Positions 788-19,237 of a stretch of DNA of 37,601 nt are shown here, piece by piece. The first letter of the stretch is position 1; each line of letters starts with the position of its first letter. Source of the DNA: Pirellulales bacterium. Its GTDB lineage: Bacteria; Planctomycetota; Planctomycetia; Pirellulales; JAICIG01. The stretch lies in assembly GCA_035533075.1 (NCBI GenBank), contig DATLUO010000015.1, positions 1 through 37,601 of the forward strand. The letters run 5' to 3'. Both the position numbers and the translations under genes were made by a program. Below the pieces are notes generated by a model. The model had not been told where the DNA came from and made no database searches. It saw only the letters and a program-made list of their open reading frames with translations.

Positions 788-2026
788 TCAATCGACGACG
801 GACAAAGTAGGTGAGTTGACGCGCGATGCTGCCAGGCCGCCCTTGCCGATGAAGAGGCCTTCCCACGCGCGGCTGACGCAAACCAACGCAATCGCGGTGG
901 CAAAGGCGGTCAACGAGAAGAGAAAGAAGCCGCCGGCAAACTGGCCCGTCTGTTGCTTTACACTGCCCAACAACGTGGGCAGCAGAAAGCCGCCCAGGCC
1001 GCCCGCCGCGCCGACCAGGCCGGTGACGGTGCCGATCTGTTTGCAGAAACGTTGCGGCACAAGCTGAAACACCGCGCCGTTGCCCATGCCCAGCATTCCC
1101 ATGACGGCGAACATCAGCAGCGTGCCGCCCGCCAGCGGCGGCGACGTGGCCAATCCCAGCAACAGCGTGCCCACGCCGAGATAGAGGAGCGTCAGCAGGT
1201 GGACACCGCCGATGCGGTCGGCCAGATAACCTCCGGCGGGCCGCAAAAACGAACCGGCCACCACGCACAGCGTGGCGAAGCCGCCGGCGGCCGCTTTCGA
1301 CAGACCATATTGATCGTGAAAGAAAATGTTCAGGAAGCTCGCCAGTCCCACAAAGCCGCCGAACGTCACGGCGTAAAAAAGGCAGAACCACCACAGGTCG
1401 GGCTGGCGCGCGACTGCCGCATAATCCGTCAACGTCTGCGGCGGCGGCTGCGTGGGACTGTCTTTGGCGGCCAACACGAAAAAGGCCAGCACCGCGACGA
1501 GCGGCACGATGGCCAGACCAAACACCGCGTGCCAGCCGATCGCTTCCGCCAGCCGCGGGCCGAAAAACGTGGCCAAGGCCGTGCCGCTATTGCCGGCGCC
1601 GGCGATGCCCATCGCCAGGCCCTGATATTGCGGCGGATACCAGCGGCTGGCCAAGGGCAGTGCGGCGGCGAAACTTGCTCCAGCCACGCCCAGCATCAGT
1701 CCGACGATGAGCAGCGCGCCAAAGCTGTTCGCCGCCAACCAGGCGAGCAACAGCGGAATGACGGTCAAGGTCATGCCCGCCAGCGCCGTCCGCCGGGCCC
1801 CGATGCGGTCGGTCATGTATCCCAGCACCAGCCGCAAGAGAGCGCCGCCAAGGATCGGCACGGCGACCAGCAATCCGCGCTCGGCGGCCGAGAGGCGAAA
1901 GTCGGGCACGATCGAATTGGCCAGCGCGCCGATGAGCACCCAGACCATGAAGCTGACATCGAAGTAGAGGAAAGCGGCCAGCAGCGTCGGCCAATGGCCG
2001 GCCCGGCGGAATTCACGAAGGTGCAT
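788..2026 (-). CDS. narK: nitrate/nitrite MFS transporter, NarK/NNP family
   Basis: This is a 412-residue polytopic inner-membrane protein of the major facilitator superfamily, with about 12 hydrophobic segments. The two glycine-rich nitrate signatures typical of nitrate/nitrite porters are visible: [19 protein letters not shown] near residue 140 and [15 protein letters not shown] near residue 310. The MFS loop motif [11 protein letters not shown] follows the second helix. It lies directly downstream of narB and should import nitrate (or exchange nitrate for nitrite) for the reductases. The translated start [19 protein letters not shown] fits the family N-terminus. No Shine-Dalgarno sequence is possible next to this ATG, because the bases immediately upstream are the heptamer array at 2027-2078. 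Substrate direction cannot be told from sequence. Confidence 0.93.
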
Positions 2027-2078
2027 GGTTAGTGGTTAGTGGTTAGTGGTTAGTGGTTAGTGGTTAGTGGTTAGTGGG
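2027..2078. repeat. GGTTAGT heptamer tandem array abutting the narK start
   Basis: About 7.4 uninterrupted copies of the 7-bp unit GGTTAGT lie directly against the narK start codon (narK reads leftward from 2026). An inverted, less regular set of copies follows at 2127-2167, so the two arrays can pair across about 50 bp. Confidence 0.95.
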
Positions 2079-2126
2079 CAGACGGCCGCGCCGCGATATT
2101 TCCTTTCCGCTTCAGCGACTCCCCTC

Positions 2127-2167
2127 AACTAATCACTAACCACTAATCACTAACCACTAACCACTAC
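2127..2167. repeat. inverted heptamer array overlapping the narB 3' end
   Basis: Copies of CACTAAC/CACTAAT, the reverse complement of the array at 2027-2078 with a few substitutions. The narB stop codon (2150-2152) and its last residues VVVSG are encoded by this repeat, so the repeat has probably replaced the original 3' end of the gene. Confidence 0.9.
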
Positions 2168-4408
2168 TCCCCTCTTCCTTACCCGCACGGCACAGGCCTT
2201 GTAGGCGGGCTGCTTCGAGTAGGGGTCGAACACCGCGTGGGTCAGTTGGTTGACTGTCGCGTAGTGCATCGGAATGAAGACCTGGCCTGCCGGCACGCAA
2301 CGGGTCACGAAAGCGCGCGCTTCGATCCGGCCCCGCTGCGATTCGACGTAGACCCACTCGCTCGGCTGAATGCCGTACGACCTGGCGTCGGCGGGATGGA
2401 TCTCGAGGTAAACGTCGTTCGGATAGAGCTTGCGCAGCACCGCCGACTTGCTGGTGCGGGTCTGCGTGTGCCACTGTGCGACGCTGCCGCGGCCCGTGAG
2501 CAGGGTCAGCGGGTAACGCTGATTGGTCGGCTCGCGCAAGGGCCGCGGCGACTCGAAAATGAACCGCGCGCGGCCGTCGGCGTGGTAGAACCGGCCGTCG
2601 GTAAACAACCGGCGCTCGCTTCCGCTTCTTGGCGCGTTGCCTTCGGTGGGCCGGCGCTCGCAAGCTCGCTGGTCCCACCCTGGGTGCTGCGAATACGGCC
2701 ACTGCACACCCCCACGTTCATCGAGCATTTCGTAGCCGTCGATACCCGTAAAGTCGCACGGCTGGCCTCGCGAAAGCTCTTTGAGAATCTGAAACACCTC
2801 TTCGGGCGACGTCCATCGCTCGAACATCGCGCCGCATCCCCAAGCTTGCCCAATCAGGTGGAAGATGCTGAAATCGGCCAGCGCCAGACCTGGCGCTCGG
2901 GCAACCTTTTTCGTCAGCCCGATGCGGCGCTCCGAGTTGATGAACGTGCCTTTCTTTTCTCCCCAGCCGGCGGCCGGCAAGAAGAGGTCGGCCAACTGAG
3001 CGGTTTCCGTGCTGTGGTACATATCTTGAACCACCAGAAACTCCAGACGCCCCAGCACGTCGAGCAACTGGCTCTGATTGATCCACGAGTGGGCCGGATT
3101 GGTGGCGATGACCCACAGCCCTTTGATTTTGCCCGAGAGGATTCCCTCGATGATTTCGTGATAGGCCCAACTGTTCCGCTGCGGAATCCGGGCGGCGTCG
3201 ATGCCGAGCAGCCGGGCCACCTTCTCGCGGTGTTCGGCATTGGTGAAATCGTGGCCGCCCAGCAGGTTGGTCGTGTTGCTGAACAGCCGCGACCCCATGG
3301 CATTGCACTGGCCGGTGATGGAGTTGGCCCCCGTGCCCGGACGGCCGAGATTGCCGGTCAACAGGGCCAGATTGATCAGGCTTTGAGCGGTCCGCACTCC
3401 CTGGTGGCTTTGGTTCACTCCCATCGTCCACCAGAACGAGACACGTTTGCCTTCATGGATGGCACGGGCAACCTGGTGAATCGACTCAACGCTGAGTCCC
3501 GTCGCCGCGGCCACTCGCTCCGGCGGATAGTCGGCCACATGAGCGGCGAAGGCGTCGAAGCCGACTGTGTGCGCGTCGATATAGGGGCGATCGATCCAGC
3601 CTTCGGCAATCAGGATGTGCGCCAGTCCGTAGAACAACTCCAAATCACTCTTGGGCTTTAACGCCAGGTGCTGAGTGGCCCGCATCGCCGTTTCCGTCCG
3701 CCGTGGATCGACGACGATGATTTCCGGGCGGTGCGGATTGCGCATCACGCGCTGCCACATAATCGGGTGGGCGATGCAGACGTTGGCGCCCACAAACACC
3801 AGCACGTCGGATTCTTCAAGGTCCTGGTAGGTGTAAGGCGGGGCATCGAAACCGAACGACTCCTTATAGGCCACCACAGCGCTGGCCATGCACTGTCGCG
3901 TGTTGCCGTCGCCGTGAACGAGGCCCATGCCGAATTTGGCCACAGCACCCAACAGCGCCATTTCCTCGGTGGTGATCTGGCCGGTGCTGAGAAACGCCAC
4001 CGACTCAGGACCATGCTCGCCGAGAATCGCTTTGAAGTGAGCGACGAAGGCGCCGATCGCCGTTTGCCAATCGGTCGGCTCCAGTTTGCCGCGGCTGCTT
4101 TTCAACAGCGGCGAAACGGCCCGATCGCCACTGTCGAGCACATTCAAGCTTTCCCACCCCTTGGGGCAAGCCATGCCGCGATTCACCGGATAGTCGGTCG
4201 CCGGCGTGAGGCCGATCGCCTCGCCGCCGCGCAAGTGGATGTTCAGGCCACAGCCGGTCGAACAAAAGCCGCAGACCGTGGTCGTGGTGGCGTCGGGCGC
4301 GCTCCGCGCCGGGACTCGGCCCAGGCCGAAGCCGCCGGGCGCCAGCAGCATTTGGCGAGTGAGATCGCCGTCTCGCTGAAGCAGCAGTTTCGACAGCGGT
4401 TGCATCAT
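2150..4408 (-). CDS. narB: assimilatory-type nitrate reductase catalytic subunit, molybdopterin oxidoreductase
   Basis: This 752-residue cytoplasmic enzyme reduces nitrate to nitrite using a bis-MGD molybdenum cofactor and one [4Fe-4S] cluster. The N-terminal cluster ligands are CGFCSTGC followed by ACPKG (residues about 46-82). The likely Mo-ligand cysteine is in NTRQCMAS, as in NarB/NasA/NapA enzymes. The C-terminal molydopterin-binding domain contains [16 protein letters not shown] and [19 protein letters not shown]. There is no Tat signal, which fits a cytoplasmic NarB/NasA-like enzyme, and the NasA C-terminal [2Fe-2S] extension is absent. Its ATG overlaps the stop of the upstream ferredoxin/anchor gene by 4 bp (ATGA), implying translational coupling. 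Around residues 577-588 the chain contains [12 protein letters not shown], which is a translated copy of a palindromic repeat (see 2645-2684). The C-terminus runs into the heptamer array. Confidence 0.93.
2645..2684. repeat. half palindromic element (family A) in frame inside narB
   Basis: This stretch matches one arm of the palindrome at 6634-6727 with a single-base difference pattern (CAGC instead of CAAG/CAAC near the GGGAC end). It is read through in frame as [12 protein letters not shown], between the conserved GGVQWPYS and [16 protein letters not shown] segments of the reductase. Confidence 0.9.
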
Positions 4409-6150
4409 CCGCCGACTCCTCCCGGCATCTTGGGTTGGGCGACGGCGGCAAAGAACAGATACCGTTCGAGCAATTCACCGGCCAAGCAGGCAACGAACAG
4501 GGTACTCGCCACGAGACCCGTAAAAAGGTCGCCGGGCTGGCCCGAGGGCGGTGCGCCGATCTGGAGCAACAGGCCCGGTAGTGCGATGCCGCCTACAAAA
4601 CCGCAAATGAACCGCGATTTTGTGACGGCGGCGAGTTCTCCCAGCATCAAGAGGGCCGAGCGCCGCAACGGCGAAGCCTGCTTCTGACGCACATGCCGGA
4701 AGATCGAAGCCTCCACCAGGAGTTTGACCGCCATCGACGCGGTCAGCACCACGCACACCTGCCGGCCGTAGTCCGCCATCAGCGCGCCCCCGCGAATCGC
4801 CTCGATGCTAGCGGCGTTGATGTAAGACGTCGACAGGGCGGTGGCGGCGCCCAGGGTTGACATGGTCAGCAAAAACTTGGCACTCGTGGCGGCAGCGTTC
4901 CAAAACGCGCGACGCGTGACAGCGTAAACCATGACCGAGCAGAACACGCCCGCTAAACCGAGACCCACGACCGCGAACGCGAGCAGCGTGTCGCCGGCGC
5001 TGGCCACACTCGCATTCGACCACCACGTCGACGCGGCATAGACGACGGCCGCGGCAGCGAACAGTCCAAAGGCCAGAATCTCGCGGCTAAGCCAACTTGT
5101 GCGCAATCCCAGAATGGCGCGAAAGGCGTACCGCGGCCGGCCCAAGTGCAACACACTCGCGGCCAAGGCCAGCAGCCCGAACAGCAAAGCGCTGGTGGAG
5201 TGTATCGGGCGGAGGGCAGCCAACACTCCGCTGCCGGGCACCCGTCGCATGGCCAGCTCGACCAGAAAGGCGCCCACCGAAAGCTGCGTGAGCACCAACA
5301 TCACAATCAAGGGCCAGTGCGCGTGTTCTCGTTTGACCGAGTAATAATCGGCGGGCAGAAGGTTGCGAGGCAGCGCGCGGGCGGTTTTGTAATTCGTCGT
5401 GGGAAAGGTGATGGTGGGCTCGGGCGCGCCAGGTAAAAACGAATTCGTTTCGCAATTGGCGATGACGTCTTGTTGCCCGGCGACGGTAATGCGGATCGCC
5501 TCGTGCGGGCAGGCTTGCACGCAAGCCGGCGCCTCGCCGACCGCCAGCCGCTCGCTGCACATGTCGCACTTTCGGACGATGCCGCGCCGCGGGTTGTATT
5601 TCGGCACGTCGTAGGGACACGCAAACACGCAGTACTGGCAGCCGATGCACTGGTCGTCGAGGTGTTTGACGATGCCCGTCTCAGGGTGCTTCTCGTAGGC
5701 CCGCACGGGGCAGGCGGTCATGCAGGCCGGATCCAGACAGTGGTGGCAAGCCGTGGTGGCGTGTTGCAGAATCGGCAGTTCGGGCGTGCCTCCGTGCAAC
5801 AGGCCCACCTCGCGCCACGTTTCGTGCTCGTCGAGCCCGTTCAGCGTATGGCAGGCCGTCACGCACGATTTGCACCCGGAACAGCGATCGAGATCGACCT
5901 CAAAGGCATATTGTTGTCCGGGTCCGGGGGGCGAGGCGGGCAGCAGGGAGCGATAGTATTTCGCCTGACTCGGTTCATCGGACGTCGCGTGCCTTTGCGA
6001 GAACCGTTCGACGGCCGACAGGTCGTGCTGCTCGGCCAAGAGCGATGCCACTAGCGCCGATGCATCGCGCGGCGGCGAGACGCGATGAATCGCTGGCGGC
6101 TTCGATTCGCGAATGACTGCGGATGTTGACACGTTAAGCGTGTTTGCCAT
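4405..6150 (-). CDS. four-cluster ferredoxin fused to DmsC-like membrane anchor (nitrate reductase electron-transfer subunit)
   Basis: This 581-residue protein has two parts. Residues about 85-240 carry four cysteine groups of a DmsB/NrfC-type ferredoxin: [37 protein letters not shown], and CDMC with CVQACP. Residues about 280-575 contain some eight hydrophobic helices like the DmsC/NrfD quinol-binding anchor. It likely passes electrons from membrane quinol to NarB, the next gene, with which it shares a 4-bp overlap. Normally these parts are separate subunits in DMSO-reductase-type enzymes, so the fusion is notable; no Tat signal is visible, so the iron-sulfur part should face the cytoplasm. 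The ATG at 6150 lies inside one arm of a large palindrome (6141-6329) and has no Shine-Dalgarno sequence. No other methionine occurs before the first cluster, so a near-cognate downstream start is possible. Confidence 0.85.
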
Positions 6151-6329
6151 CAGCTTTAGCTGGTGGTTCCGATAGTGGGTTTATCTTCTCTCGGCCGGCT
6201 TTAGCCGGGCTTCTCGGTCGTGGCTTTAGCCATCATTCAGACCAGCGATGATCGAGAAGCCCGGCTAAAGCCGGTTCAGTTTCCGATTGATTGTGGTCGC
6301 CAACCACCAGCTAAAGCTGGTGGCAAACA
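6141..6329. repeat. nested palindromic elements covering the leader of the nitrate reductase operon
   Basis: The outer arms are 6141-6168 and 6302-6329, pairing at 27 of 28 positions. The inner arms are 6195-6216 and 6253-6274, a perfect 22-bp inverted repeat built around GGCTTTAGCC. The start codon of the ferredoxin/anchor gene (6148-6150) lies in the outer left arm. Confidence 0.92.
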
Positions 6330-6633
6330 GGAACGACAACACGAGCGGTTGCAAGGTCGCGGTAAGCAGGCCGCGTACCGGCGGGGCGCGGGACGCTGTT
6401 TTTTCGGAAAGCCGAAGCGATTCAGTCGTTTGCGATGCCGCCCGTCCTAGCGTGCTGCCGAAAGAACGCGCAGTGTCGCCTAGTCGTAAGGCAGACGCTG
6501 GCGCCGGCGAACATGGGAATCGGCAGATGTGCTTCGGCTTTCCGAAGAAAGCCGCACCCCGCAGATCGCGGGCACGCGGGCTGCTATGTGGCGGCTGCGA
6601 ATGTGGCCTCGGCAAACTGCCGGGGCCACGTAT
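6330..6633. repeat. imperfect palindromic element with TTCGGAAAGCCGAAGC core
   Basis: Arms 6399-6418 and 6531-6550 pair at 19 of 20 positions, and weaker complementarity extends outward on both sides (about 6365-6398 with 6551-6590). A related element lies at 13448-13580, in inverse orientation relative to the right arm. No coding sequence is supported in this stretch. Confidence 0.8.
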
Positions 6634-6727
6634 GTAGGGTGGGACAACCGAGCTTGCGAGCGCCGGCCCACCACGATTGCCGAAAAATGGTGGGCCGGCG
6701 CTCGCAAGCTCGCTTGTCCCACCCTAC
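6634..6727. repeat. complete palindromic element (family A) upstream of nirBD
   Basis: Two 40-bp arms, 6634-6673 and 6688-6727, pair at 39 of 40 positions around a 14-base loop. The element ends 36 bp before the nirBD start codon. Partial copies occur at 141-160 and within narB at 2645-2684. Confidence 0.95.
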
Positions 6728-6763
6728 GAACCCGCGTCCAGCCGCTTGCTTGAAGGTGATCCA

Positions 6764-9700
6764 ATGATTCGATCCAACACGAAGACCGTCGTTGTCATCG
6801 GCAACGGCATGGTCGGTCACCGGTTCTGCGAGAAGCTGGTTGAATTCGACAAGCTCCATCAATACAAGATCGTCACGTTTTGCGAGGAGCCGCGCGCGGC
6901 CTACGACCGCGTCGGGCTGACCTCGTTTTTCGCTCATCGCGATGCCGAGAAGCTGATGCTCGCACGGCTCGACTGGTATCGCGAGCACGATATCGATCTC
7001 AACATCGGCGACCGGGCCAACAAGATCGACCGCAAGCATCGGCGGGTCTTCAGCGATCGTGGCCGCGAAATCCCTTACGACTTCGTCGTTCTTGCCACCG
7101 GCTCGTATCCCTTCGTGCCGCAAGTGCCCGGCATCAAGCAACCGGGCGTCTTTGTCTACCGCACGATCGACGACCTGGAGCGGATCATCGCCTATGGCGA
7201 AAAGGTCAGTCGGGCAGCCGTCATCGGCGGCGGGCTGTTGGGACTGGAGGCGGCCAAGGCCAGCTACGATCTGGGACTGGAAACACACGTCGTCGAGTTC
7301 GCGCCGCGGCTCATGCCGAGGCAAATCGACGAGAGTGGCTCGAAGCTGCTGGTGGAAAAGATCGAACGGCTGGGGGTCCGCGTTCATTTGAACAAGAGCA
7401 CCAAAGAAGTGCTCGGCCACGGCGGCGTCGAAGGGCTCATATTCAACGACGATGCGCGGCTCGACGTGGGCATGATCGTCGTCTCGGCGGGTATCCGGCC
7501 TCGCGACGAGTTGGCGCGCGACTGCGGCCTCACGGTGGGCGAGCGGGGAGGCGTCGTCGTTGACGACGCTCTGCAAACGAGCGATCCGCAGGTGCTGGCG
7601 ATCGGCGAAGTGGCCTCTCACCGAGGCATGGTCTACGGTCTGGTCGCCCCGGGTTATGAAATGGCCGAGATCGCGGCCGCCAACTTCTGCGGCGACGAGC
7701 GGGCGTTCACCGGCGCCGACCTGTCGACCAAGCTCAAACTGATGGGCGTCGACGTAGCCAGCTTCGGACGTCATGAAGCCCCGCCCGAAGAGGCCCGCGG
7801 GCTGGTCTACGAAGATCCCTTTGGCGGCGTTTACAAAAAACTCCTCTTCAGCCACGACGGTACACGGCTTGTGGGAGGCATACTGGTGGGCGACGCCGCC
7901 GACTACGGCCGCTTGCTGGCCCTCACCAAGAGCGGCCAGCCGCTGCCCGTTCCGCCGGGCGAATTGATTCTCGGCAAGAAGGATGCGGCGGCCGGCGCCG
8001 GTCTCGACGACGCCTGCCAGGTCTGTTCGTGCAACAACGTCAGCAAAGCACAGATCTGCCGCGCCATTCGCGAGCAAGGGCTTACTGACCTGGGCGCGGT
8101 CAAGGGATGCACCAAGGCCGGCACCGGCTGCGGCGGTTGCCTGCCTTTGGTCAGCGACCTGTTGGCCGCCGAGCTGACGGCCGCGGGCAAGGCCGTGAGC
8201 AAACGTCTTTGCGAGCACTTTGCCTACACGCGGCAGGAGCTGTTCGAGATCGTCAAAATCCGCGGCATCAAAACTTTCGCAGAGATGATCGCCGGTCATG
8301 GCCAGGGGCATGGCTGCGAAATCTGCAAGCCGGCCGTGGCCTCGATTCTGGCCAGCTTGTGGAACGAAAACGTCCTGGCGCCGCCGCACCAAACGCTGCA
8401 AGACACCAACGATCGCTTTCTGGCCAACGTGCAGCGCGACGGCTCGTACAGCGTCGTCCCGCGCGTTCCGGGCGGAGAGATCACGCCCGAAAAACTGATC
8501 GTCCTGGGACAAGTGGCCCGCAAATTCGGCTTGTACTCGAAGATCACCGGAGGGCAGCGCGTCGACCTGTTCGGCGCCAAGCTGCACCAGTTGCCCGATA
8601 TCTGGGAAGAACTGGTCGAGGCGGGGTTCGAGAGCGGTCACGCTTACGGCAAGGCGCTGCGGACCGTGAAGAGTTGCGTGGGGAGCACCTGGTGTCGCTA
8701 CGGAGTGCAAGACTCGGTCGGCTTTGCCATTCGCGTGGAAGAGCGTTATCGCGGCATCCGCGCGCCGCACAAGATCAAGGCCGCGGTATCGGGCTGCGTG
8801 CGTGAATGCGCCGAGGCCCAGGGCAAAGATTTCGGCCTGATCGCCACGGAACAAGGGTACAACCTTTACGTCTGCGGCAATGGCGGCGCCAAACCCCGCC
8901 ACGCCGAGTTGCTGGCCGCCGACCTCGACGAAGACACGGCCATCAAATACATCGACCGCTTCCTGATGTACTACATCCACACCGCCGACCGGCTGACGCG
9001 GACCAGCGTCTGGCTGGAAAAGATGGACGGCGGCATCGACCATCTGCGCGCGGTGATCGTTGACGACAAGTTGGGCATTTGCGACGAACTGGAGCGGCAG
9101 ATCCAGTTCCTCGTCGATTCGTACCGTTGCGAGTGGGCCGAAGTGGTCAACGACCCCGAGCGCCGCCGGTGGTTCAAACAGTTTGTCAACACGGACGAGA
9201 CGGAGCCGGGCATCGAGCTGGTGACCGAGCGAGGCCAGCAACGACCCGCCGATTGGCCGAAGAATTTTGATTTTGTTCCGCTGGAGCAGGTCAAACTGAA
9301 CGGGCACGGTGTGCGTCAGCCCGGCGTAGCAGAACTCGTGAGAGTTCCGGACGTAAACCGCGGCGACGGCCGGACTTCTCACGAAGTCTGCTACGGGCCG
9401 GCCACAAGCTGGGTGAATGTCGGCCGGGTCGAGGATTTTCCCCTCGAGGGCGGCGCCGCGGTGAAGTACGGCAAGTGCCAGCTTGCCGTTTTCCAATTCG
9501 CCAGTCGCGGCGAGTGGTACGCTACGCAGAACATGTGCCCCCACAAGCGGGCCTTCGTGTTGTCGCGCGGCATCATCGGCGATCAGGCAGGGGTGCCCAA
9601 GGTCGCCTGTCCGTTGCACAAGAAGACCTTCGCGCTCGAAACCGGCGAATGTCTGAGCGGCGAAGATTACTCGATCCGCGTGTTTCCCGTGAAAGTGGAG

Positions 9701-9859
9701 GGTGGCGAGGTGTACCTCGAACTTCCACCGGAGCACGAGCTTGACCTGGGATTAGCCACCGATCTGCACGCGGTCCGCGGCTGCCAGGATCGCGCGCCGG
9801 GGTGTCTGCAACTAACTTCCGCGCCGCCACGTGCCAGTCATCTAAGCAGTATCGCTTAA
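6764..9859 (+). CDS. nirBD: single-chain assimilatory nitrite reductase, NirB-NirD fusion
   Basis: This 1031-residue protein should reduce nitrite to ammonium with NAD(P)H. It starts at ATG 6764, preceded by GAAGGTGAT, and MIRSNTKTVVVIGNGMVG is a natural NirB N-terminus. Upstream codons belong to the palindrome. Domains in order are FAD/NAD(P)-binding Rossmann folds (VVIGNGMVG near residue 9 and AVIGGGLLGLEAA near residue 150), a BFD-like [2Fe-2S] domain (CQVCSC and GCTKAGTGCGGC, about 418-460), and the ferredoxin-like and sirohaem/[4Fe-4S] reductase domains (CVGSTWC near 637, SGCVRECAEA near 676). A NirD Rieske-fold domain follows (about 883-990). Unlike E. coli NirD, it keeps the CPH and CPLH ligand pairs, so it may hold a Rieske cluster. 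The junction between NirB and NirD parts is encoded by a palindromic element at 9325-9395. The last ~20 residues may also be repeat-derived. Confidence 0.94.
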   Translation: MIRSNTKTVVVIGNGMVGHRFCEKLVEFDKLHQYKIVTFCEEPRAAYDRVGLTSFFAHRDAEKLMLARLDWYREHDIDLNIGDRANKIDRKHRRVFSDRGREIPYDFVVLATGSYPFVPQVPGIKQPGVFVYRTIDDLERIIAYGEKVSRAAVIGGGLLGLEAAKASYDLGLETHVVEFAPRLMPRQIDESGSKLLVEKIERLGVRVHLNKSTKEVLGHGGVEGLIFNDDARLDVGMIVVSAGIRPRDELARDCGLTVGERGGVVVDDALQTSDPQVLAIGEVASHRGMVYGLVAPGYEMAEIAAANFCGDERAFTGADLSTKLKLMGVDVASFGRHEAPPEEARGLVYEDPFGGVYKKLLFSHDGTRLVGGILVGDAADYGRLLALTKSGQPLPVPPGELILGKKDAAAGAGLDDACQVCSCNNVSKAQICRAIREQGLTDLGAVKGCTKAGTGCGGCLPLVSDLLAAELTAAGKAVSKRLCEHFAYTRQELFEIVKIRGIKTFAEMIAGHGQGHGCEICKPAVASILASLWNENVLAPPHQTLQDTNDRFLANVQRDGSYSVVPRVPGGEITPEKLIVLGQVARKFGLYSKITGGQRVDLFGAKLHQLPDIWEELVEAGFESGHAYGKALRTVKSCVGSTWCRYGVQDSVGFAIRVEERYRGIRAPHKIKAAVSGCVRECAEAQGKDFGLIATEQGYNLYVCGNGGAKPRHAELLAADLDEDTAIKYIDRFLMYYIHTADRLTRTSVWLEKMDGGIDHLRAVIVDDKLGICDELERQIQFLVDSYRCEWAEVVNDPERRRWFKQFVNTDETEPGIELVTERGQQRPADWPKNFDFVPLEQVKLNGHGVRQPGVAELVRVPDVNRGDGRTSHEVCYGPATSWVNVGRVEDFPLEGGAAVKYGKCQLAVFQFASRGEWYATQNMCPHKRAFVLSRGIIGDQAGVPKVACPLHKKTFALETGECLSGEDYSIRVFPVKVEGGEVYLELPPEHELDLGLATDLHAVRGCQDRAPGCLQLTSAPPRASHLSSIA
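9325..9395. repeat. palindromic element (family E) at the NirB-NirD junction
   Basis: Arms 9325-9350 and 9370-9395 pair at 22 of 26 positions. Each arm is also a small hairpin by itself, AACTC-GTGA-GAGTT on the left and GACTTC-TCAC-GAAGTC (as read on the plus strand in the right arm), and the differences between arms keep these inner stems paired. It is translated without a stop as the linker between the two domains. Confidence 0.88.
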
Positions 9860-9887: not shown

Positions 9888-10065
9888 GTCTCGCGTTGCC
9901 CTGCTGATGAAAAATTCCGCAGACGTATCGTACTGTGGACAAATAACTTAGCACACGTCGGCGGGTGCAGGCCGGGCCGTGACAAACCGTTTGGAACGCC
10001 GTTTTCATAAGCGTCGAGATTCAGCAGTCAATCACATGGTCTACTGGCGAGATCCGAAGGCCATA

Positions 10066-11832
10066 ATGGCAGGTGGGCTACTCCTCGACGATTCAATAAA
10101 CACCGCCGACACCGACAGGTCTGATTTCGCCGAACGACTTGTTCGCCCGCTCAGGTTTCGCTACGCGGTGGTCTTCGTGGCGGTGGCGTCGTTGTTGCTG
10201 GCCGACCAGGCTGTCATTCAACCGCTGTTGGTGCGGCTGAATGGCTATGCGCCCGTCATCAACCTGGCCGGGCGTCAGCGGATGCTGAGCCAGAAACTGG
10301 CGAAACAATCACTCGCGATTGAGTTCGGCGTCGGTGAATCATCGGCGGCAGCCCGTCGCCGTGAGTTGTCGAAGACCGTCGAGCAGTGGTCGACGGCGCA
10401 TCGCGTCTTGCGCGACGGCGACGCTCGACGAGGAATCTCGCCCATAACCACTCCGCAGATTGCCGCGGCGTTACGAGACTTGGAGCCGGACTTTGCCGCC
10501 ATGCGAGCGGCGGCCAGCCAACTGGCCGCAGTGCATGAACCGTCGCAGTGGCTGGGGCAGAGCCTAAGCGATGCCCCGGCGCCTCAAACCGGGACATCGC
10601 CTGGCCGCATCGTCCAGGCGCAGACTGAGCCGTTCACAGGCCAGGCTCTGCCCCAGCCACCGGTCGAGCGCATCGCGAATGCCGACTCGCCGTCCGACCG
10701 TATGGCGCTGGTACGTGCGGTTCTCGACCATGAAGCCGACTACTTGTCGGGCATGGAGCGCGTGGTCGCCATGCTCGAGGCGGAGGCCCAGCAACAGGTG
10801 GCGTGGCTTCGTCTGTGCGCCCTCGCGGCGGTGGTGATGGCCATCCTGCTCCTGGCCAGTCTGTATGCCTTCGTCCTGCGGCCGGCGACGACGCTCATTC
10901 GGCAACAGTTGCGAATGCTTGCGGCGAGCGACGACCGCCATCGGGCGCTGGCAGAGTTGCTGCGCCGCGCACGCGACGAGCTGGAACTGCGTGTCGCTGA
11001 ACGAACGTCGGAGCTGAGCCAGGCCAACACGGCCCTGGAGTGGGAGATGCGACATCGCCAGCACGTTGAAACGCGCGTGCGGCGGCTTTCCTCGAACCTG
11101 GCGCATGCCACGCGGATTACGGCGCTGGGACAGCTCGCCACGGGGTTGGCCCACGAGTTGAACCAACCGCTCGGCGCCATCGCCAACTATGCCGGTGTCT
11201 GCGAACTGCTCCTTGAAGAGGAACTGCACGACAACCACGCTTCGCGCCGCGCCATCAGCGAGGTGAAGCGATCGGCGTTGCGGGCGGGCGAAATCGTGCG
11301 GCGGATGCGCAATTTCGTGCGGCGCGGCGCCGACCAGGCGTCGCGAGTCGACTTAAACGGTCTCGTGAGAGAAGTCGCCGAATTGTGCGACCCCGAGTTG
11401 CGGCGCAGCGACGTCGAGCTGACTCTCAATTTGTGCGGCGAGGCATTGGTCGTCGCCGATCCGATTCAGATTCAGCAAGTGCTGGTGAATCTGGTTCAGA
11501 ACGCCCTGCAAGCCATGCGCGACGTCGACGGCCGCAAAATCGTCGGCATTCGCACGTCGGTGGCCGCGGGCGGCGCGCAGGTCGATGTGGCGGATTCGGG
11601 CCCCGGTTTTCCGGACGAGGGCCGCGACGACCCGTTCGCGCCGTTCTTCTCCACCAAGGACGACGGCCTGGGAATGGGGCTGTCGATCAGCCAAACGATT
11701 GTCGAACAACATCAGGGGCGCATCTGGGCGGGCAATCGCCCGGCCGGCGGCGCGATCGTCAGCTTCTGTTTGCCACTTGCTCCAAACCATGACACCCCAA
11801 ACCGCGCCACCGCCCACAGTCTTTGTGGTTGA
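10066..11832 (+). CDS. membrane histidine kinase with NIT/PilJ-type sensor domain
   Basis: This 588-residue sensor kinase has a first membrane helix at about residues 32-48 and an extracytoplasmic PilJ/NarX-like sensor containing NLAGRQRMLSQKLAKQSL, the P-box-like motif of this family. A second helix lies at about 250-268, followed by a short coiled coil. The HisKA domain has the phosphoacceptor in GLAHELNQPLGAIANYAG, and the HATPase domain has LVNLVQNALQAM, DSGPGFPD and GMGLSISQ. ATG 10066 is preferred because GAAGG lies 5 bases upstream; GTG 9979 or ATG 10036 would add residues without homology. It follows nirBD and overlaps the response regulator by 44 nt, so sensing nitrate or nitrite is a fair inference. 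The sensor domain contains a 39-codon stretch bounded by the inverted repeat 10546-10662, apparently an inserted palindromic element. The kinase core resembles FixL/NtrB-like enzymes. Confidence 0.9.
   Translation: MAGGLLLDDSINTADTDRSDFAERLVRPLRFRYAVVFVAVASLLLADQAVIQPLLVRLNGYAPVINLAGRQRMLSQKLAKQSLAIEFGVGESSAAARRRELSKTVEQWSTAHRVLRDGDARRGISPITTPQIAAALRDLEPDFAAMRAAASQLAAVHEPSQWLGQSLSDAPAPQTGTSPGRIVQAQTEPFTGQALPQPPVERIANADSPSDRMALVRAVLDHEADYLSGMERVVAMLEAEAQQQVAWLRLCALAAVVMAILLLASLYAFVLRPATTLIRQQLRMLAASDDRHRALAELLRRARDELELRVAERTSELSQANTALEWEMRHRQHVETRVRRLSSNLAHATRITALGQLATGLAHELNQPLGAIANYAGVCELLLEEELHDNHASRRAISEVKRSALRAGEIVRRMRNFVRRGADQASRVDLNGLVREVAELCDPELRRSDVELTLNLCGEALVVADPIQIQQVLVNLVQNALQAMRDVDGRKIVGIRTSVAAGGAQVDVADSGPGFPDEGRDDPFAPFFSTKDDGLGMGLSISQTIVEQHQGRIWAGNRPAGGAIVSFCLPLAPNHDTPNRATAHSLCG
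10546..10662. repeat. palindromic element (family D) in frame inside the kinase sensor domain
   Basis: Arms 10546-10565 and 10643-10662 pair at 19 of 20 positions (GGCTGGGGCAGAGCCT core). Inside lie two smaller hairpins, 10570-10579 with 10589-10598 and CGCCTGG/CCAGGCG near 10599-10620. The whole element spans 117 bases, exactly 39 codons, with no stop in the kinase frame. One arm recurs alone near 19013-19032. Confidence 0.9.
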
Positions 11833-12445
11833 CGACGATCAGCAAATGCGCGAATCGCTCGTCATGCTGATCGAGACGATGGGGTATCCCGCGCGCGGTT
11901 TTGCCACGGCGGGGGCGTTTCATCGGACCTATCTGCGCCAATGGCCCGGCTGCCTGGTGCTCGACGTGCGGTTGCCGGGCAAAAGCGGAGTGGAGCTGTA
12001 CGAGCAGTTGGTCCGTGAAGAAAAGCGGCTGCCCGTGATCTTCATCACCGCCCACGCCGACGTGACGACCGCGGTGGCGGCCATGAAGACCGGGGCCATC
12101 GAGTTTTTGGAAAAGCCGTTCGACCGTCAGACGCTGCTGGAGCGCATCGAACGGGCGTTGGCGCTCGACGCCGACTGGCGCCGGCGGCAGGCGAACTTCG
12201 ACGCGATCGACGCCCGGATCGCGCGACTGAACGGCCGCGATCGCGAAACGTTGCAGTTCATCCTGGCGGGCGAATCGAACAAAGTCATGGCGGCCAGGCT
12301 GTTCATCTCCGAACGGGCGGTGGAAATGCGCCGGGCCGTCATCATGCGCAAGGTCGGTGTATCGTCGTTGGCCGAACTGATCGACGTGGCCGTGACTCAC
12401 CGGCTGCTGGCCGAAATTTCCACCGTGTCCGACGTTGCTCGGTAG
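11789..12445 (+). CDS. FixJ-like two-component response regulator
   Basis: This 218-residue regulator begins at ATG 11789, inside the 3' end of the kinase gene in another frame. Its receiver domain (about 9-125) shows the acidic pair VVDDDQQ, the phosphoacceptor aspartate in CLVLDVRLPGKSG, the conserved threonine in FITAHADVTT, and the lysine in FLEKPFD. The C-terminal LuxR/FixJ-type helix-turn-helix is recognisable in LNGRDRETLQFILAGESNKV and RLFISERAVEMRRAVIMRKV. The canonical 'ANK' of the recognition region is altered to SNK, and the domain is otherwise normal in length. It should be phosphorylated by the overlapping kinase and control the nitrate genes, but its targets are inferred only from position. 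Confidence 0.92.
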   Translation: MTPQTAPPPTVFVVDDDQQMRESLVMLIETMGYPARGFATAGAFHRTYLRQWPGCLVLDVRLPGKSGVELYEQLVREEKRLPVIFITAHADVTTAVAAMKTGAIEFLEKPFDRQTLLERIERALALDADWRRRQANFDAIDARIARLNGRDRETLQFILAGESNKVMAARLFISERAVEMRRAVIMRKVGVSSLAELIDVAVTHRLLAEISTVSDVAR

Positions 12446-18718: not shown

Positions 18719-19237
18719 CCCGGACGCACTGGCGATTCGACGGCGCGGCAGAACTGGTTTAGAGTAGATTAGAATAGAGTCGTCCGGGGAGATGCGTAAC
18801 GGAGAACGATGGACTTGCCAATCAAATTCCCCCGGCGATGCCGAAGTGGCCGCCGAGGAGGCCGCTCGCTTTCGGGCGCTTTCGCCCGCGGAACGAATGC
18901 GCCCTTGCCCACGACTTCTACTGCCAAACGTTAGCCGAGACAGAAATCTACTGTATCCTGAGGGCATCGCTTGGCCGCCACGCTCTTGAAGGGCGTCAGC
19001 CGCAATCTGGCCAAGCTCTGCCCCAGCCACCGCTTCTCACGGCAAAACGTTAGCTTGGCGTGGGCGTCACACCCGCTCATCGGCGGTCGGTGGGTTTTTC
19101 TCTGCATTGGCCGTGCTCGTCAACCGATAGCAGATAGGATGGCTCTAGCGATTGGCGGGTTTACTACACGTACGCGTCGGTGACGCCGCGCCACGGAACG
19201 CGAGAGCGCCCTGCAATGCTATCGAAGGACTGCCATC
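18719..19237. other. intergenic region with gene remnant and repeat arm
   Basis: It contains the frameshifted remnant at 18809-18989 and a solo arm of the palindrome family D near 19013-19032 (GCTCTGCCCCAGCCACCG). Nothing else is recognised. Confidence 0.6.
18809..18989 (+). pseudogene. frameshifted remnant of a small planctomycete protein
   Basis: ATG 18809, preceded by GGAG at 18801, gives MDLPIKFP, and the next frame then continues as GDAEVAAEEAARFRALSPAERM before losing homology-like character. The second piece resembles the N-terminus of short conserved planctomycete proteins, recalled but not searched. The break near 18833 suggests a +1 or -2 frameshift, and the 3' end is replaced by unrelated sequence leading to a repeat arm. 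Confidence is low. Confidence 0.35.

Follow-up and report, generated by a model that had tools for sequence, protein, structure and literature searches.

What is the palindromic element that lies inside the sensor domain of a histidine kinase from a Pirellulales bacterium, and how did it come to be there? The window analyzed here is a stretch of 37,601 nt from contig DATLUO010000015.1 (GCA_035533075.1, forward strand), in which a first-pass annotation had pointed to a 39-codon palindrome at 10546-10662 that could either alter signalling or simply extend a loop. We propose that the element is very probably of the REP-dimer or REPIN type, inserted in frame into the loop between sensor helices 3 and 4, and that its family has been amplified in this genome and in a family-mate.

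The palindrome in the kinase gene

A perfect 16-base arm stands at each end of the element, GTGGCTGGGGCAGAGC starting at 10548 and its exact complement ending at 10660, and the distance from end to end is 113 nt. It falls within codons 190-228 of the 617-codon ORF 9979-11832 and introduces no stop codon (Table 1). Folded as single-stranded DNA, the element reaches -40.5 kcal/mol (z = -6.0), and none of 200 shuffled sequences is equally stable. The 39-codon palindrome is thus real, given its arms, open frame, fold and genomic copies, and a chance origin is excluded more strongly because copies recur elsewhere in the same genome. The palindrome had been described as exactly a multiple of three long; retention of the reading frame is certain, whereas the length hinges on the chosen ends and is 113 nt from tag to tag.

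The window copy consists of one short unit and one long unit, with a GTGG tag at both outer ends. The short unit, 32 nt including its tag, folds alone to -11 kcal/mol with a z of only -1.5, and the long unit alone gives z = -1.2; neither unit folds significantly by itself. The long unit is missed by a strict unit pattern because TGTCCC stands where the family has TGCCCC. One arm had also been thought to recur alone near 19013. An arm does recur there, but as part of roughly half of another copy, which matches copy L038, including its flank, with 92.4% identity over 92 columns (blastn). No empty-site version of the window copy was found.

Table 1. Features of the window that bear on the palindromic element
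Feature	Position	Strand	Basis
PilJ/NIT-type sensor histidine kinase gene	9979..11832	+	Pfam PilJ 87-186, HisKA, HATPase_c; phmmer McpN 6gcv
REP-dimer-like (REPIN-like) element	10548..10660	.	GTGG tags outside; in-frame within codons 190-228 (10546-10662)
Short REP unit	10548..10579	+	GTGG tag + CTGGGGCA-GA-GCCTAAGC-GA-TGCCCCGG hairpin; sequence, unit parse
Spacer/apical loop between the two units	10580..10588	.	Sequence + fold
Long REP unit	10589..10660	-	Hairpin enlarged, loop variable; orientation opposite to first unit; family alignment
Partner response regulator (receiver + LuxR-type HTH)	11585..12445	+	Response_reg 1.4e-26, GerE 1.9e-11
Truncated second copy	18962..19050	.	Right half of REP dimer + start of outer palindrome flank; intergenic

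A family of paired hairpins

The 14-base core of the arm occurs 240 times in the genome, compared with 0 occurrences of the pattern read backwards as a control. A DNA search of the same genome with the window element yields at least 68 matches at E ≤ 0.001 (40 of 278 candidates scored), and the best among those listed has 87% identity over 114 nt (E 1.8e-31). Copies were collected from 157 stretches of this genome (664,023 bp), namely the window and 156 stretches fetched around arms; arms followed by T are represented by 100 of 138, and the copy counts are lower bounds genome-wide. With at most three mismatches allowed per arm, this sample contains 105 distinct paired copies, and the genome total is thus at least 105. 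The family comprises well over a hundred interspersed copies. Copies are most often 149-157 nt long; three of the 105 (those of the window, L009 and L010) measure 113 nt and share the combination of one short and one long unit. The window copy belongs to this rarer 113-nt subtype.

Each unit consists of a GTGG tag and a hairpin, CTGGGGCA-GA...GA-TGCCCCRG, and since each copy pairs two such units in inverted orientation, the organization is that of a REP dimer or REPIN. The strict unit pattern identifies 165 units in the 105 copies, with the inner stem flanked by GA on either side in 143 units and a long interior of 46-64 nt (mostly 51-52) in 159. The inner stems fall into several complementary kinds (GCTTGGCC/GGCCAAGC, GCCTGGCC/GGCCAGGC, AGCTGGCC/CGGCCAGC and GCCGCG/CGCGGC), and on average 7.03 of 8 positions pair, compared with 6.22 when partners are shuffled (highest of 200 shuffles, 6.40), indicating co-variation. 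This unit-by-unit pair counting replaced RNAalifold, for which 83 copies of 148-158 nt were reduced to 41 by removing those more than 90% alike and 40 were aligned. The RNAalifold pairs lie mostly in the invariant arms because the stems shift by one base between subtypes, and two-sided changes are found in 3 of 25 pairs.

G012, a genome from another family of the same order, shows the two-unit form most plainly; 10 of its 13 fetched stretches contain both arms by the criterion applied. Its copies of about 80 nt (79-85 nt) read GTGGCTGGGGCAGAAC...GATGCCCCAG, a loop and then the inverse, and one of them folds with z -7.15. Of 296 genomes of the order, 9 contain the 17-mer GGTGGCTGGGGCAGAGC, with 224 occurrences in this genome, 117 in its sole sampled family-mate, 14 in G012 and 1-3 in each of six others; a whole 152-nt element used as a query finds matches in 3 of 39 genomes. 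One viral contig also carries the 17-mer, and a search of plasmids with the window copy gave no match. Rfam provides no identity above the gathering threshold, and the hairpin alone accounts for weak matches to mir-550 (22 bits against 81).

A classical REP unit is an imperfect hairpin of 20-40 nt. The short window unit and the G012 units are of similar size, whereas 159 of the 165 parsed units of this genome are long. REP dimers of the GTAG superfamily (BIMEs or REPINs), including those of Opitutus terrae, share the outside tag, the inverted hairpin pair, the high copy number and the mostly extragenic location (PMC3733652). That source reports frequent association of REPs with RAYT genes and the occurrence of intragenic REPs and REP dimers in many species, with some dimers, as in this family, inside genes that include both uvrA genes of O. 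terrae and the uvrA of Thioalkalivibrio. It also describes GTGG, a variant of the GTAG tag, in O. terrae GTAG-20, unpaired GA in the stems of P. aeruginosa GTAG-24, and the nesting of REP dimers in palindromes that end in TATA in other bacteria (PMC3733652). The present family differs from these GTAG-superfamily REPs in its units of mostly about 70 nt, its enlarged inner stem and its variable loop of about 30 nt. Thus, it appears to be a REP-dimer family of an already known kind that is itself undescribed; a limited literature search found no paper on it, including none on repetitive extragenic palindromic sequences of Pirellula.

The sensor kinase and the position of the insert

The host protein has 617 residues when counted from the listed GTG, and its true start may lie downstream. 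The assignment of a nitrate-type sensor domain by the first-pass annotation is confirmed by Pfam (PilJ, 3e-15, followed by HisKA and HATPase_c) and by a phmmer match of the sensor to the ligand domain of McpN (6gcv, 1e-7). The sensor half scores near zero in a codon model, and Pfam and the orthologues are therefore the basis for regarding it as coding. The response regulator 3' of the kinase probably starts near 11789 rather than at the beginning of its listed ORF. The genes beside the kinase encode a molybdopterin oxidoreductase, an Fe-S/DmsC-type protein, an MFS transporter and a nitrite-reductase-type protein, and are consistent with nitrate control. Together they form a nitrate/nitrite-type cluster at 788-9859, in which the nitrite-reductase-type flavoprotein carries a Rieske domain.

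The alignment with PilJ/NIT kinases that had been suggested as a check was made with orthologues from a protein search of 39 genomes, including this one. The six best other matches that also cover the sensor half (L049-L054; other families, 40-49% identity) all lack the 39-residue insert, and the length of the surrounding loop varies among them. Conservation of the 39 residues outside planctomycetes, which the first-pass annotation would have taken as a refutation, was looked for in plasmid records and not seen; two records match the sensor region, and only one spans the insert, with 175 encoded residues against 225 query residues. A protein search of GTDB 220 contigs returned only relatives of the kinase half and no near orthologue, and no conservation of the insert was found outside its own genome.

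When residues 54-300 are modelled by AlphaFold2 from a single sequence (mean pLDDT 62.6), helices lie at 3-63, 70-93, 106-114 with 116-131, and 185-246 in model numbering. Positions 134-182 fall below pLDDT 50, and the insert occupies 137-175. The best solved structure in Foldseek is the sensor of the nitrate receptor McpN (E 9e-5, probability 1.00). The model helices, the low pLDDT and the McpN match therefore place the insert in the loop between helices 3 and 4, and the orthologue alignment agrees with the earlier view that it lies between conserved helices. The host protein shares the sensor fold of the McpN/PilJ-type nitrate sensors (6gcv) and differs from them by its 39-residue insertion at this point. 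By the topology of such bundles, the helix 3-4 loop would be the membrane-distal end, and the model suggests that the 39 extra residues are probably floppy or disordered. Between the two effects envisaged at the outset, simple extension of a loop fits better.

Copies in other genes

Do other copies of the family also enter proteins? Few copies lie in coding ORFs, with about 5 of 105 read inside genes and the bulk elsewhere. In a UvrA gene, a REP dimer (L032 2442-2594) adds 51 residues between GTPEDIV and SYTGEMLAPVL; this insert is absent from all 17 alignable relatives, whose linkers vary in length (2 of the 19 relatives have no usable downstream part). A third intragenic copy, after those of the kinase and UvrA, lies inside an NRPS condensation domain, which Pfam splits at that point. 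Furthermore, L137 and L230 contain long ORFs that are coding on both sides of the copy by codon usage, so that these copies are probably read in frame in two more proteins; the relatives of the L137 protein diverge around the insert. Three other candidates were rejected as intragenic: L035 2502-2659 has a prohead-protease-like coding part on one side and a capsid-like one on the other and is probably intergenic read-through, and the copies in L206 and L227 lie upstream of alanine dehydrogenase and NAD kinase.

A frame survey took in every strongly coding ORF that runs into a copy (n = 10), not just the in-frame cases. Five ORFs (L032, L035, L137, L212 and L230) are still coding beyond the copy in the same frame and none in another frame; three (L010, L187 and L231) gain short tails, and two (L009 and L144) meet a stop inside the copy. 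No surviving frameshifted gene was found among these ten. The window kinase stands outside this set because of the near-zero score of its sensor half. Copies are open in 54-60% of frames, compared with approximately 49% for shuffled sequences, and chance in-frame passage is therefore expected in nearly one in five cases (one third multiplied by the 54-60% of open frames). The simplest reading is survival of the in-frame insertion events. Copies can also end genes, since the host gene of the 113-nt copy L009 3501-3613, presumably DUF255/YyaL-like, terminates at a stop within the element.

The window contains other repeats as well. A second palindromic repeat of 37 nt with a GGTGGGCCGGCGCTCGCAAGCTCGCTGGTCCCACC core lies at 2645-2681 inside ORF 2150-4408 on the minus strand, where it is in frame and read as a 13-residue peptide between two domains of the molybdopterin oxidoreductase. 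This peptide recurs in the prohead-protease-like part of L035, and the repeat is found at 68 places with at most 4 of 35 mismatches in the 157 loci of this genome. Short TGGTTAG arrays at 2026-2077 and 2128-2166 stand in opposite orientation and give a 39-nt inverted repeat between genes.

Ends, outer palindromes and transposase genes

An outer flank is recognizable in 49 of the 105 copies, and on both sides in 31 of them. The outer palindrome ends in TATACTTC...GAAGTATA, and many copies lie inside the form TATACTTCACGCGGCC...GGCCGCGTGAAGTATA. At L308 1501-1568, a 68-nt outer palindrome, TATACTTCACGCGGCC...GAAGTATA, contains no REP dimer; it is internally shorter and was rejected as an exact empty junction, as was L309 as an empty outer palindrome, being an internally deleted copy. 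At least three kinds of larger palindrome have copies at their centre. Among 56 stand-alone copies, left and right flanks show no clear excess of identity that would mark a target-site duplication. The flanks are complementary with a score of at least 20 in 16 of the 56, compared with 9.1% of shuffled pairs, an excess that comes partly from known host palindromes. The family may conceivably target the hairpin tips of single-stranded DNA, an idea that we hold only tentatively and consider rather unlikely.

Y1_Tnp genes occur in all four genomes examined, with 12 matches in this genome, some of whose products we take to be RAYT-like in sequence. A scan of 22 Y1_Tnp loci from the four genomes, reaching about 1.5 kb, found a perfect tag and outer stem only at L294 (this genome) and L283 (G001), in both cases about 1 kb away, which is approximately no more than expected by chance. 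None of the 22 loci has a Y1_Tnp gene immediately flanked by family repeats, and none of them ties a RAYT clearly to the family.

Origin of the insert

We propose that a family of inverted REP-like hairpin pairs with external GTGG tags was amplified in this planctomycete and in one sampled family-mate, presumably moving as single-stranded DNA through a RAYT-type (Y1) transposase, and that a copy of the 113-nt subtype entered the kinase gene at the helix 3-4 loop of the extracytoplasmic domain. The gene would have survived because the insertion preserved the reading frame and brought no stop, so that the protein would carry about 39 extra, probably disordered residues at its membrane-distal tip. 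These residues are presumably translated, and they may be near-neutral for signalling and tolerated in a surface loop. Of this proposal, the data show the family membership, the unit structure, the absence from orthologues, the in-frame reading and the similar in-frame copies elsewhere.

Could the element instead be a classical MITE, a non-autonomous derivative of a DDE transposon with terminal inverted repeats of 16-18 bp that is moved by an IS transposase rather than by RAYT? The perfect terminal inverted repeats would suit such an origin, as would the flanked copies (49 of 105, 31 on both sides), which form a longer palindrome, TATACTTC...GAAGTATA, as in a MITE with a TA target. However, the inner element lacks a target-site duplication in the 56 stand-alone copies, and its tag and hairpin interior with co-varying inner stems, together with the minimal two-hairpin form of G012, is REP-like. 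The outer palindrome constitutes a layer of its own; many family copies lie inside it in the manner of MITEs with TA-type ends, whereas the window copy has no such flank. We therefore regard a MITE as improbable.

An adaptive insertion, selected for changed ligand access, dimer packing or kinase regulation, is still harder to sustain and seems very unlikely. The insert does lie within a sensor, and the kinase adjoins nitrate-reduction-type genes, so that modulation could matter; yet unrelated proteins also contain copies of the family in frame, the inserted residues are predicted to be disordered and occupy a loop whose length differs among orthologues, and conservation outside this genome was not found. 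The behaviour of the family also resembles that of the Rickettsia palindromic elements (RPE-1 and others), which, as described in PMC3733652, are likewise palindromic and in frame within functional proteins; in the present family these are a kinase, UvrA and an NRPS. The likeness is one of behaviour as described. RPEs come from a different phylum, and the present family has the bulk of its copies outside genes. An RPE proper, or its descendant by transfer, is extremely improbable because the family is confined to this order among the genomes searched (17-mer in 9 of 296, heavily in 2) and has GTGG hairpins of its own.

The REP-dimer family thus adds a large, apparently undescribed member of its kind for a planctomycete, and, within a large bacterial genome, it clearly illustrates the in-frame entry of palindromic repeats into proteins. 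Its occurrence in uvrA repeats an oddity already published for other REP dimers (PMC3733652). The naturally insert-free orthologues make the tolerance and effect of such peptides directly testable. If the family did target hairpin tips, its insertion into genes would be incidental, with disordered linkers grafted time and again into proteins such as sensors and UvrA.
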